Assembly: GCF_014203275.1 (NCBI RefSeq)
Contig: NZ_JACHIP010000001.1
Location: 496,001 to 560,000 of the forward strand
Origin: Granulicella aggregans
Lineage (GTDB): Bacteria; Acidobacteriota; Terriglobia; Terriglobales; Acidobacteriaceae
Length of the DNA stretch: 64,000 bases
Reading direction: 5' to 3'
Shown: piece after piece, positions 17,923 through 28,323 of the stretch
Numbering within the stretch: the stretch's first letter is position 1
How the letters are laid out: each line of letters starts with the position of its first letter
Notes under the pieces: generated by a model
What the model saw: the letters and a program-made list of their open reading frames with translations, nothing else
Told to the model about the DNA's origin: nothing
The model's database searches: none
Position numbers and translations under genes: made by a program

Positions 17923-18641
17923 TAGTTCTGCCCTTCCTTCGAGTCGTCCGCACCGACGCGCCGCGCAAAGTTCTGGATCAGCAAGCGGTCGGTCTCAGCA
18001 GTGATGACCAGCTTCTTAGCGGCCTGCTCGATTGCCAGCTCTGCTGCGTACTTCTGAATCTGTCGCTGCGCGTGCGTCGTAGCCGCTGCAATCTCCTGCT
18101 CGGCCGAAGCAAGAATCTTCTTCTTCTCTTCCTCGACGTTGGCCTTGATGCGCTGCTCGTCCGCCACAGAGTCCTGATCGGCCTTCGCGCGCATGGCGGC
18201 AATCTCGCCGTCCAGCTTGGCCAGCCGCGCTTCAACGCCACTCAAGCGGCTGTTCGCCTCTTCAGTAGCGGTGCGCGCATCGACCAGATCTTTCTGGATC
18301 GTCGCATTGCGTCCACGGAAGGTCTTCGGCAGCGCCTTCGCCAGGAACAGTCCAATCAGGATCGCCAGGACCGCGAAGTTCGCGACTTCAAACGCCGTGG
18401 CAGCCTGGTCCGTGCTCATGCCGAGCATCGATCCAATCTTCTTCACCGAAGCCGAGTGCTTGAACGAAGCCGTCTCGTCTTCTTCTTCTTCAACGCCCTT
18501 AGCCTCACGCGACTCAGGCGTGGACGTAGCCGCTACCTTGCCGTTCGAGGGTTCCTGCGCCCTGATCGAGTGCAAAGGGCTCGCCAGCAAAGCGGCAAAC
18601 ATCACTGCAAAAAATAGCTTCTTCAAACCGGATAGCCTCAC
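17922..18641 (-). CDS. atpF: ATP synthase F0 b subunit with N-terminal extension
   Basis: 239 residues, about 70-80 longer than a standard b subunit. Residues 1-29 look like a cleavable signal peptide (LKKLFFAVMFAALLASPLHSIRAQ). An acidic stretch (VEEEEDETASF) follows, and only then the usual b membrane helix (FEVANFAVLAILIGLFLAKAL, split here as AVLAILIGLFLA) and the long coiled coil (AEEEKKKILASAEQEIAAA-like). A signal peptide before the b helix implies that the extra N-terminal ~65 residues are periplasmic. The start overlaps the end of the b' gene by 4 bp. Confidence 0.93.
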   Translation of the reverse strand: MRLSGLKKLFFAVMFAALLASPLHSIRAQEPSNGKVAATSTPESREAKGVEEEEDETASFKHSASVKKIGSMLGMSTDQAATAFEVANFAVLAILIGLFLAKALPKTFRGRNATIQKDLVDARTATEEANSRLSGVEARLAKLDGEIAAMRAKADQDSVADEQRIKANVEEEKKKILASAEQEIAAATTHAQRQIQKYAAELAIEQAAKKLVITAETDRLLIQNFARRVGADDSKEGQN

Positions 18642-19102
18642 TGAATTGCCTCCGGAGGCACGCCGGCCGGAAGGATCGCGCGCAGGATCTGCGTGCTCAG
18701 CGCCGCGCTCGCGCCTTCAATCTGTTGCCGCGCGCTTGCCGCAGACTGCTCAATCTCGTTCTTCGCGACCTTCAGCCGCTCCTGTGTCGCTGTGCGCGCC
18801 TGCTCCAAACTGGAGTCTCGCTCGCTGTTCAGCGCCTTAAGCTTCTGCTCGCGGGCCTGGAAGATCTCAGCTTTCGCCGCGCGAAGCTTGTCCTCATACA
18901 CGGCCGTCTCAGCTTCCGCCGCGGAGATGGCACCGCGCGCCTGCTCTACTGCTCCAGAGGTACGCGCCCGGCGCTCTGCCAGCACCTTATTGAGAGGTCC
19001 CTGCACCAACACGCTATAAGCGGCAATTAGCAGCAGAAACAGCAGGATAGTCGGCACGGAGCCGAGCATAAGTCCACCAAGTTGATTCAGTATTTGTTCC
19101 AT
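18638..19102 (-). CDS. ATP synthase F0 b' subunit
   Basis: 154 residues: one N-terminal membrane helix (VPTILLFLLLIAAYSVLV) and a charged Ala/Glu/Arg-rich coiled coil to the end. The LNKVLAERRART motif just after the helix is typical of b/b' subunits. Two different b-type genes in tandem indicate a b/b' heterodimer stalk, as known from phototrophs, Acidobacteria and others. It is the first gene of the operon; atpB (a), atpE (c) and atpI are absent and must be elsewhere. No strong Shine-Dalgarno is visible. Confidence 0.9.
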   Translation of the reverse strand: MEQILNQLGGLMLGSVPTILLFLLLIAAYSVLVQGPLNKVLAERRARTSGAVEQARGAISAAEAETAVYEDKLRAAKAEIFQAREQKLKALNSERDSSLEQARTATQERLKVAKNEIEQSAASARQQIEGASAALSTQILRAILPAGVPPEAIQ

Positions 19103-19220
19103 AGTGAGGTCGGCTAGCGGGTAGATCTATGCCGTTATGATTCCTGTTGCCTGGCTGGCCAAGGCGGGGGGTGTGCGCCAGCGTTGAGTGGAAGAGCTTT
19201 ATTACAGTCGTGTCCCTATA

Positions 19221-19250
19221 TTTTTAGCAAAGCACTCACTAGAGTGTCAA
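19221..19250 (-). promoter_or_regulatory. Predicted promoter of the ATP synthase operon
   Basis: On the minus strand TTGACA is followed after 18 nt by TAAAAA. The expected transcript start is about 110 nt ahead of the b' start codon. The perfect -35 box and AT-rich -10 region make it the best promoter candidate in this spacer for the operon. Confidence 0.6.
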
Positions 19251-19263
19251 TGAATCAAACGAC

Positions 19264-19290
19264 GGTAATCGCACAAGTATCGCGATTACC
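19264..19290. promoter_or_regulatory. Inverted repeat between divergent promoters
   Basis: GGTAATCGC and GCGATTACC are exact 9-bp arms with a 9-nt spacer. It lies between the minus-strand promoter at 19221-19250 and the plus-strand promoter at 19329-19356. That is where a regulator acting on both would bind. No known consensus recognised. Confidence 0.45.
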
Positions 19291-19328
19291 GGACGCACGA
19301 ATTTTGTTCAATTCTCCGCCGATAACGG

Positions 19329-19356
19329 TTGACTTTCGCCGTCAGCAGCCTAAAAT
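19329..19356 (+). promoter_or_regulatory. Predicted sigma-70 promoter of a candidate RNA
   Basis: TTGACT and TAAAAT are separated by 16 nt. No plus-strand protein gene follows for about 900 bp, which suggests a non-coding transcript starting near 19363. Confidence 0.55.
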
Positions 19357-19362
19357 AAAACT

Positions 19363-19490
19363 CATCTGAAGGCCCTATGATCTGGGTCGCACAGGCCGCG
19401 TGACAGGGGACACCACCTCCGCTCCCCTTCAGGCGGCCTGTTCTAATTTCAGCTGCACTTCTCCTGATCTGACCCACGAATAGTACACGG
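19363..19490 (+). ncRNA. Candidate structured non-coding RNA beside hfq
   Basis: Downstream of a good promoter the sequence folds into nested perfect stems. TGGGTC (19383-19388) pairs with GACCCA (19471-19476), ACAGGCCGC (19391-19399) with GCGGCCTGT (19433-19441), and AGGGGA (19405-19410) with TCCCCT (19423-19428). A single 29-nt unpaired stretch (19442-19470) lies on the 3' side between the outer and middle stems. No protein frame fits. I do not recognise it as tRNA, tmRNA, RNase P, SRP RNA or a known riboswitch; a 6S-like RNA was considered, because of the long interrupted rod, but no diagnostic bases were found. The ends are approximate and no clear terminator was found. The rest of the spacer (19491-19721) holds only a 7-bp hairpin, TCCCCGC-aa-GCGGGGA, at 19591. 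Confidence 0.5.
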
Positions 19491-19721
19491 AAACATCATC
19501 GCCCGTCAGCCATCACGCTGTCGCTGCGCGAGGAGAAATTTTAGCTTCCCGAATTGATCGCTTCAGCATGCGCCGACAGGTGAATGCGCATCCCCGCAAG
19601 CGGGGACGCGAACCGGTAGCCGAGGCACAGTGGACCTCAAGGGAAATCAGAGATAGTACGAAACGTCCCGAAATGAGACGCTAATCAGCCGATCATCCGA
19701 CGACTCACAGGCAGTGGTGTC

Positions 19722-20051
19722 CTAGCGATCGAGAGAAGCGGCACCATCGGCGTGCATAGCGCTCGCCGAACCGACGTGGCCGCCCGACGAGGGCACCACC
19801 CGGCCTTCCGCCTTCTCCGGGCGAAGGTCAAGATGCATCCCCGCGCGCCCGCTCACCACCGTAGAGATGGCGTGCTTGAAGATGAGCTGTTCCTGGCTGT
19901 TGTTCTCGAGCAATACCGAGTACTTGTCGAAAGAGCGGATCTTTCCCGTCAGCTTCACACCGCTCACAAGATAAATCGTGATGGGACTCTTATCCTTACG
20001 GACCGTATTGAGAAACGTGTCCTGGATATTCTGTGCCGGCTTGGAATCCAT
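19722..20051 (-). CDS. hfq: RNA chaperone Hfq
   Basis: 109 residues. The Sm domain occupies residues ~7-70: [34 protein letters not shown] (Sm1), and IFKHAISTV (Sm2, with the KH motif). The ring-shaped hexamer pairs small RNAs with mRNAs. A 40-residue tail ([11 protein letters not shown], then [15 protein letters not shown]) is longer than in minimal Hfq and is low-complexity, as in E. coli, where tails assist RNA release. AGAGGAG lies 8 nt before the ATG. The gene points toward the candidate RNA. Confidence 0.96.
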
Positions 20052-26407: not shown

Positions 26408-26845
26408 TCAGTTCAGCCGCTCCCGCTCACTCTTGTCGAAGCGCGCGTCCAGCGGCTTCCGCTCGCTGAACTCTTCTTCCAGCCCATGCCAGTGGCTGAT
26501 GCCCGGCTCGCCGATCTTCCAGCACAGCATCACCACATCCCCACTCACCATGCAGGGAAAGTCCAGCAGCCCATCTTCAAGCGACTGCACCTGCACACCA
26601 ATCGAGTCGATCTCCGCCAAAGTCTCCTTCGTCGACTCGATCGCCTTCTCCCGTTCCCCACGGCGTTTTGCGGCGGCAACGACATCGACGTGCATCCCAC
26701 CCGAGAGAAAGATTCGCTGATTCAACTCCTGCATCTCGCTCTCCAGCTCACTCACCCTCCCCGCCATCTTCTGCGCGCCACGCAGCAGCGACTCCAGCAC
26801 CGGCAGCAGCGTCTGCGCCTCGGACAACGTGAACGTCTTACTCAT
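26408..26845 (-). CDS. DUF2203 family protein
   Basis: 145 residues from the ATG at 26845. Pattern of DUF2203: TFTLSEAQTLLPVLESLL at the start, a long amphipathic helix region (VSELESEMQELNQRI), LAEIDSIGVQVQSLEDGLLDFP in segments, and CWKIGEPGISHWHGLEEEF. It is a small soluble helical protein with no known activity. Its start codon overlaps the stop of nadA by 4 bp (ATGA), so it is probably translated together with quinolinate synthase. The conserved W/H-rich C-terminal motif could bind metal, but that is untested. Confidence 0.85.
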   Translation of the reverse strand: MSKTFTLSEAQTLLPVLESLLRGAQKMAGRVSELESEMQELNQRIFLSGGMHVDVVAAAKRRGEREKAIESTKETLAEIDSIGVQVQSLEDGLLDFPCMVSGDVVMLCWKIGEPGISHWHGLEEEFSERKPLDARFDKSERERLN

Positions 26846-27987
26846 TTGACCTCCAACATCCTGTCGAGCGCGACCTTCGCCCATTCCTTTACATCGTCAT
26901 CCACCTTGATACGGTTCACCACCCGGCCCTCGACGAGGTTCTCGAGCGTCCACGCCAGATGCTGCGGCGAGATCCTGTACATCGTCGTGCACAGGCATCC
27001 GGAATCGTCCAGCGTGATGACCTTCTTGCCCAGCGGCGCAAACCGCTTAGCCAACCGGTTCACAAGATGAATCTCCGTGCCGACGGCGAAGCTCGAACCC
27101 TCCGGCGCCTTATCGATCACATCGATAATCCGCTCCGTCGATCCAATCGCATCCGCCTTCTGGCAGACCTCCCAGCGGCACTCCGGATGCACGATCACCT
27201 GCATCCCCGGCTCTTCGCGACGCACGCGATCGGCATGCTCCGGCAGAAACCTCTGGTGGACAGAGCAGTGTCCCTTCCACAAGATCACCTTCGCCGCTTT
27301 CAGACGGTCCGGCATCACACCGCCGTTGATCTGATACGGGTCCCAGACAACCATCTCGCTCATCGGAATCCCCATCGCGAAGGCGGTATTCCGCCCAAGA
27401 TGCTGGTCCGGAAGAAACAAAATCTTCTCCCCGCGAGCAAACGCCCACTCAAAAGCTCCTCGCGCGTTGGACGAAGTACACACCAGCCCGCCACGCTCGC
27501 CGCAGAACGCCTTAATATTCGCAGCCGAGTTCATATACGTCAGCGGGATCAATCCGCCTTCATGCGTCAGCCCAACCCGCTCCAGCGAGTCCCAACAGTC
27601 CTCAACCTGACCAATCTCTGCCATGTCCGCCATCGAACATCCCGCGTTTAAGTCAGGCAGGATCACTTGTTGCCAAGGCTTGCCCAGAATGTCCGCCGTC
27701 TCCGCCATGAAGTGAACGCCGCAGAACAGCATATACTTCGCCTGAGTCTCAGCAGCAATCTTCGAGAGCTTATAGCTGTCGCCGGTAAAGTCCGCGAACC
27801 GGATCACCTCGTCGCGCTGATAGTGGTGTCCCAGCAAAACGACATCGGTTCCAAGCTTCGCTCGCGCCGCAGCAATCCGCGCGTCCATCGTGTGGTCGGG
27901 TTGGGAAAGATAGTGGTCGAGGGAACAATTCTCCCCTGTAGCTGCGCCTTCGGCTATTGCCGGGGCTTCTTCCAGTAGATCGATCAA
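26842..27987 (-). CDS. nadA: Quinolinate synthase (NadA)
   Basis: A [4Fe-4S] enzyme that condenses iminoaspartate with dihydroxyacetone phosphate to quinolinate in de novo NAD synthesis. Motifs: VVLLGHHYQRDEV, DFTGDSYKLS, FCGVHFMAETADIL (first cluster Cys), PDLNAGCSMAD, YMNSAANIKAF, GLVCTSSNARG (second Cys), FLPDQHLGRNTA, HPECRWEV, STERIIDVI, and DSGCLCTTMYRI (third Cys). The TTG at 27987 has GGAG 5 nt upstream and is my preferred start; the frame is open to an ATG at 28110, but the extra N-terminus looks non-coding. NadB, the partner making iminoaspartate, is at 34827. The 28111-28323 spacer holds no feature I can support. Confidence 0.95.
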   Translation of the reverse strand: MIDLLEEAPAIAEGAATGENCSLDHYLSQPDHTMDARIAAARAKLGTDVVLLGHHYQRDEVIRFADFTGDSYKLSKIAAETQAKYMLFCGVHFMAETADILGKPWQQVILPDLNAGCSMADMAEIGQVEDCWDSLERVGLTHEGGLIPLTYMNSAANIKAFCGERGGLVCTSSNARGAFEWAFARGEKILFLPDQHLGRNTAFAMGIPMSEMVVWDPYQINGGVMPDRLKAAKVILWKGHCSVHQRFLPEHADRVRREEPGMQVIVHPECRWEVCQKADAIGSTERIIDVIDKAPEGSSFAVGTEIHLVNRLAKRFAPLGKKVITLDDSGCLCTTMYRISPQHLAWTLENLVEGRVVNRIKVDDDVKEWAKVALDRMLEVK

Positions 27988-28323
27988 AGTAACTCCGCCT
28001 TCAGTCCAGCGAGCCCTGCATAGCTGCAGCCGCTCGAGAACGGGGATGTTGAAAGCATTCACTGCGCGGTTGCAGTGGATTCGCTGTACCCATGCTCGAA
28101 GTCCGAACACGAAGCACCCAACCCACGGGGATGTTGCAACCCTTTACTCGTCCGTCAGAAGTCCGATGACCTCTGCCGAACGTACACTTTAGACGAGGTC
28201 GCCACCGAAACGATGCACGAATCTGGCATTGCCAGCACGCCCACTTTCATCATCGCATAATCTTCTGGCAACACTCCTGCCACATTTGTTGAGTCCCTTT
28301 CGAACCCGTATCATAGGAAGATT

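Follow-up and report, generated by a model that had tools for sequence, protein, structure and literature searches.

A predicted two-hairpin small RNA gene of Granulicella aggregans and its relatives in the Terriglobales

Several bacterial small RNAs are described as reaching their targets through cytosine-rich stretches. PmaR of Agrobacterium tumefaciens, as portrayed in the cited sections of its description, has a long stable stem and an open C-rich loop; this loop is the target-binding site, and changing four of its letters abolished target regulation (PMC6234868). According to the same sections, the PmaR loop is not an anti-Shine-Dalgarno region and the RNA acts mostly away from ribosome-binding sites (PMC6234868). 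RoxS and FsrA of Bacillus subtilis are likewise reported, in the cited part of the source, to bind mRNA targets by C-rich regions (PMC8216469). The streptococcal csRNAs, in the excerpted account, are small stand-alone RNAs predicted from an intergenic promoter and terminator; their promoters depend on CiaR, and each genome has between two and six such genes (PMC3091779). Within the phylum considered here, Acido-1 (RF01686) and Acido-Lenti-1 (RF01687) are presented in the cited portion of their report as candidate structured non-coding RNAs (PMC2864571).

The locus analysed here lies in a window (the whole 64,000-nt stretch of DNA, G000:C1:496001-560000) of a 7.3-Mb genome. Judged from sequence, a ~90-nt RNA gene with two hairpins is likely present at ~19363-19453 on the plus strand, downstream of a sigma-70-type promoter, and we regard it as nearly certain that the locus is a genuine structured RNA gene. 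Its features (positions are those of the window) were as follows.

19329..19334, plus strand: -35 element TTGACT, the commonest -35 of the family (22 rows)
19351..19356, plus strand: -10 element TAAAAT; the commonest family forms are TACACT, TAAACT and TAGACT
19361..19370, plus strand: 5′ leader before hairpin 1, with CACC in 59/73 distinct rows
19363..19453, plus strand: predicted small RNA of ~90 nt, both ends placed from the promoter and the limit of conservation
19371..19388, plus strand: hairpin 1, in which 19371-19375 (GGCCC/GACCC) pairs with 19384-19388 (GGGTC)
19391..19441, plus strand: hairpin 2, pairing 19391-19399 with 19433-19441, 19401-19403 with 19429-19431 and 19407-19410 with 19423-19426
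19411..19422, plus strand: terminal loop CACCACCTCCGC, predicted largely unpaired and containing CACCTCC
19442..19453, plus strand: T-rich tail past hairpin 2, a weak terminator-like end judged by the T fraction over 80 rows

With PmaR this RNA shares the long stable stem and the open C-rich loop, but PmaR is alphaproteobacterial and is described as a single spoon-like structure; the likeness, compared by description, is one of design and not of kinship. RoxS and FsrA have C-rich regions as here in a Bacillus host and are likened by description only. The csRNAs resemble it as small stand-alone RNAs, and differ in their CiaR-dependent promoters and in gene number, one copy being the rule here.

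On the plus strand the fold beat 200/200 shuffled sequences, with z scores of -3.96 for the 162-nt region and -4.92 for the 90-nt core. The original prediction had drawn a rod of three nested stems reaching to 19490. All three stems are present as letters (GGGTC 19384-19388 with GACCC 19471-19475, CAGGCCGC with GCGGCCTG, and AGGGGA with TCCCCT), and on the 3′ side the outer pair of stems is indeed separated by the stated 29 nt (19442-19470). The outermost stem, however, was not conserved: GACCC or GGCCC occurred anywhere downstream in only 8/29 genus members (window included), and no such partner was present downstream in L010, the closest relative. Instead GGGTC is the partner of 19371-19375, giving two hairpins side by side in place of a rod, and conservation stopped near 19453.

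A BLAST search with 19200-19760 found the region in 29/61 genomes; every one belongs to the genus of the source genome, which is itself among them. The genus alignment (A1) comprised 29/29 of these genomes, own window included; L009, a repeat of the window, and L038, the second of two pieces of a single place, were excluded. In this single-orientation alignment the relatives shared the -35 and -10 elements, the leader, both hairpins, a near-constant loop and the tail, and little else. A covariance model built on the 29 rows (R1) detected the RNA in 51/62 genus genomes and 46/200 family genomes; when 7 of the 11 genus genomes without a match were re-searched with laxer filters, 0 matched. A second model (R2, 49 rows) detected it in 237/298 sampled genomes of the order, covering 48/70 genera, the source rows of R2 recurring among these matches; 234 of the 237 carriers belonged to the own family and 3 to a second family of the order. 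One copy per genome was the rule in this search. Two genomes, G236 and G110, had two model matches each, the second in G110 being weak (E 0.041).

Across the phylum, R2 matched 44/396 genomes, 40 of the own family and 4 marginal, and a single weak match (E 0.0028) came from ten genomes of the class that lie outside the order. The four phylum-wide matches outside the order (G319, G543, G513 and G331; E 1.3e-4 to 9.3e-4) are probably due to chance: by eye they had neither a promoter nor a hairpin pair of the present type, though CCTCCGC occurs in the G513 match. A DNA-pattern search of named genomes returned at least 119 stretches, and the 80 listed ones were rescored. Among these listed matches, 48 scored 50 bits or more (47 titled acidobacterial and 1 Verrucomicrobia), and the other 32, one of them titled Acidobacteria, scored 18 bits or less. 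The locus titled Verrucomicrobia (L134, CAJCIP010000075.1) carries the RNA together with Acidobacteriaceae-like atpF and hflX, and is probably a mislabelled or mixed bin. By sequence, the relatives of the window included Edaphobacter (Acidobacteriota, Terriglobia, Terriglobales), Granulicella, Terriglobus, Acidicapsa, Bryocella and Acidobacterium; named carriers include Edaphobacter modestus, Granulicella mallensis and Terriglobus albidus.

Covariation was assessed in three alignments. A3 comprised 49 sources (L023, L091 and the genus loci L039-L071 excluded; one weak minus-strand match in the window was removed by raising the cut-off). A4 comprised 80 loci picked for diversity, 73 of them distinct, including six second-family and far-family rows (L102-L107). 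Both were fitted to the model and are thereby biased toward its structure. A5, a structure-blind MAFFT alignment of 54 of the 80 rows of A4, without L104-L107, is free of that bias. In the model-fitted alignments, changes on both sides of a pair were found at 14/21 pairs (49 rows) and 17/21 pairs (80 rows), those of hairpin 2 accounting for 14/16 of its pairs in the 80 rows; 0/500 shuffles reached the observed values in either alignment, and all slid structures scored far lower. RNAalifold applied to A5 predicted the same two hairpins, with 13/17 predicted pairs changed on both sides, although only 2 hairpin 1 pairs were called, since some rows were mutually shifted. Pairing of hairpin 1 was kept in 98.6% of genus cells and, once the family alignment was fitted to the model, in 100% over its 73 distinct rows; 98.0% of cells were paired in the genus alignment. 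Sequence comparison shows that the helices are kept by compensatory changes. Helices 1 and 4 were near-invariant in sequence as well as in pairing. The second-family loci L104-L107 shared hairpin 1 and the base of hairpin 2 and had no CCRC-UCCC tip; they may be only distant members, or a different element.

The promoter TTGACT-16-TAAAAT named in the original prediction was confirmed at 19329-19356 (plus strand), followed as stated by ~900 bp free of a plus-strand protein gene: the next such gene is of the DegT aminotransferase type (named by eye), with a mechanical open frame from 19752 and relatives aligning from ~20298. By itself the promoter was at chance level (1 found vs 0.8 expected in shuffles). 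It counts as evidence through its recurrence among members and not through this single occurrence: under a rule that fixed the -10 as TAnnnT and asked for at least 4/6 matches at the -35, it recurred in 41/73 distinct members (32/73 failed), vs 0-1 of 70-73 at ten displaced positions. Past hairpin 2, the T fraction was 0.418 in the first 12 nt vs 0.22 over the next 48 nt (80 rows). The plus strand of the window showed no consensus terminator, and the tail no long U-run. Hfq-dependent RNAs usually have a strong U-run or U-rich 3′ end.

A coding role was rejected. Among the 73 distinct rows no conserved reading frame was found within the RNA; the commonest start-codon column was occupied in 36/73 rows, with reading lengths of 1 to 370 codons. 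Two mechanical ORFs overlap the RNA (19184-19369, plus strand; 19286-19477, minus strand), and both have in-frame stops in L010. The claim of a non-coding structured RNA behind a promoter thus stood on conservation, covariation and the recurring promoter, its transcription being a prediction. That this is a stand-alone small RNA gene is indicated by the covariation, the recurring promoter, the single copy, the wide occurrence and the lack of a conserved ORF.

What the RNA would do is suggested by its unpaired parts. The loop and the leader ranked among the best conserved unpaired stretches, and this, with the likeness to PmaR and to RoxS and FsrA, favours a base-pairing small RNA. We give about even chances to a stand-alone gene for a ~90-nt trans-acting regulatory RNA that base-pairs by its C-rich loop. 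Transcription would start at an RpoD-type promoter and end just past hairpin 2. G-rich mRNA stretches, e.g. ribosome-binding sites, would then be bound by the C-rich loop through base pairing, perhaps by the CACC leader too, and the pairing would alter translation or stability of the mRNA, possibly with Hfq. The loop, predicted to be open, is CACCACCUCCGC here, and it ended in CCRC in 68/73 distinct rows. Its CACCTCC equals the core of the 16S anti-Shine-Dalgarno sequence.

Some observations speak against base pairing. CCTCC was present in the loops of 42/73 distinct rows, so that the anti-Shine-Dalgarno letters vary; the leader of this genome has diverged (CTCATCTGAA) and lost CACC; and hairpin 1 is more invariant than pairing needs. 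The lack of a strong U-run, and the description of the PmaR loop as no anti-Shine-Dalgarno region, also count against it. The loss of the RNA from some genus members speaks against the small RNA reading as well. A preference of the loop for start regions over gene interiors was tried on 234 crudely called genes in 400 kb of the own genome: 7/40 shuffled loops did as well as the real one, in a test of little power in which the 16S tail itself was equalled by 8/40. For six other family loops 1 to 27 of 40 shuffles were as good, and for two leaders 15 and 24.

The main rival to a base-pairing small RNA, possible but less probable in our judgement, is a new protein-binding or housekeeping RNA, in which a protein would recognise the tip (GGGA/CCRC-UCCC) together with hairpin 1 (GACCC...GGGTC), and the RNA would sequester or scaffold that protein. 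The near-invariance of helices 1 and 4 in sequence as well as pairing fits such a role, as do the single copy with wide retention and the persistence of CCRC and UCCC while the anti-Shine-Dalgarno letters of the loop vary. Yet no known protein-binding motif was identified in the RNA, its loss from some genus members means that it is not essential there, and conservation is also seen in the seeds of base-pairing RNAs.

An element acting in cis, whether as leader or riboswitch for a gene that follows it or by regulating the adjoining atp, hflX or hfq genes, was considered improbable from the gene neighbourhood, in which the following genes flank the RNA.

18638..19102, minus strand: atpF-type ATP synthase b-subunit gene (named by eye), the divergent neighbour in 70/80 loci
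19722..20051, minus strand: hfq (named by eye), the convergent neighbour in this genome

The usual order was atpF, RNA, hflX, hfq. The RNA occupies a place of its own, with the outward-facing atp operon on one side and incoming hflX or hfq on the other. The divergent atpF match sat 179-554 bp upstream of the RNA in the 70/80 loci, and the next gene after the RNA was convergent hflX in 59/80 and hfq in 6/80, window included (some flanks were too short in both counts). The place beside atpF, kept so widely, would suit a cis element, but the downstream hflX or hfq is oppositely oriented in 65/80 loci. Moreover, in L080, L086 and L090 the RNA sits elsewhere, away from atpF and hflX, with promoter-like letters upstream. 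In 9/11 RNA-less genus genomes atpF was located; the gene across the spacer is hflX in 6 of them and hfq in 3, and by eye the RNA was absent from all nine spacers. These RNA-less spacers that still have hflX or hfq indicate that the RNA is a separate, losable gene and that hfq is independent of it, hfq adjoining atpF in three of them (L237, L240 and L243). Together with the occurrence of the RNA away from atpF and hflX, they support the stand-alone small RNA gene. An arrangement that would also suit a cis element was that of the second-family loci L104, L105 and L107, where a same-strand alpha/beta-hydrolase-like gene (named by eye) follows; the element preceding it there is RNA-like, with the same hairpin 1 and a different loop.

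The position beside hfq on which the original prediction had remarked holds for this genome but is a derived state, hfq being the direct neighbour in 6/80 loci only. It is so here because hflX sits elsewhere in the genome: the best hflX match was at C6:316310-317647, with none between the RNA and hfq (19490-19722), and hflX was likewise not between them in L010, L011, L018, L027 and L036.

A 10-bp inverted repeat, CGGTAATCGC, whose halves stand 9 nt apart, was noticed at 19263-19291; it lies between the RNA promoter and what looks by eye like a minus-strand promoter of the atp operon (TTGACA...TAAAAAT). The place was also listed as a terminator-like element of the minus strand. In 4/29 genus members exact repeats of at least 8 bp were seen there, and the repeat is possibly an operator.

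The locus was unlike any Rfam family: in the Rfam 15 search no curated threshold was reached there, and the only matches in the window were two of the nadA family, neither at the RNA. Those two are tandem nadA-motif riboswitches (RF03013; 59.6 and 44 bits) at 27997-28141 on the minus strand, where they overlap the start, as mechanically called, of an ORF resembling quinolinate synthase (26842-28110, named by eye); tandem nadA-motif riboswitches at such a gene start are a known arrangement. Permissive Rfam searches of the locus and the loci of 16 relatives gave four sub-threshold matches (E 0.6-3.5), none credible; the sole one at the locus, mir-1281 (E 3.5, 17.7 bits vs a cut-off of 70), was at chance level. 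Neither the Acido-1 nor the Acido-Lenti-1 model matched here or at any of the loci from the 16 relatives. Bacterial SRP RNA (RF00169) was rejected, with no match at the locus and the SRP RNA located at C3:181874-181971. Among open-licence papers no report of the RNA was found; earlier publication in a 2017 survey, which reportedly presented 224 candidate RNAs, is possible.

6S RNA binds RNA polymerase and templates a product RNA, and has a large asymmetric central bulge between two long arms. The locus had been suggested to be possibly 6S-like, and a promoter in front of a largely double-stranded RNA is a trait common to both, but 6S RNA or a 6S-like occupier of RNA polymerase is very improbable here. 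RF00013 gave no match at E 10 in 19200-19760, the genome has its 6S RNA at G000:C1:637564-637750, no central bubble is conserved and the outer stem is unconserved; the Rfam 6S model, at 187 positions, is about twice as long as this RNA. Equally hard to credit is an untranscribed element, a mere terminator stem or chance intergenic palindrome, since, common as GC-rich intergenic hairpins are, hairpin 1, loop, leader and promoter recur jointly here and the covariation is far above its controls.

Acidobacteria are abundant in many soils and few small RNAs are annotated in the phylum, the cited table of a 2022 review giving only 4 for Acidobacteria (PMC9029176). An RNA found in 237/298 sampled genomes of the order, with a model, an alignment and named carriers, is a testable entry to RNA regulation in this group. 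Tentatively, it may be a Terriglobales-specific core non-coding regulator: a rigid scaffold of two hairpins, with two stems that hardly vary, would display single strands that are rich in C and in part anti-Shine-Dalgarno, and the RNA could thereby influence translation globally or else hold a protein.
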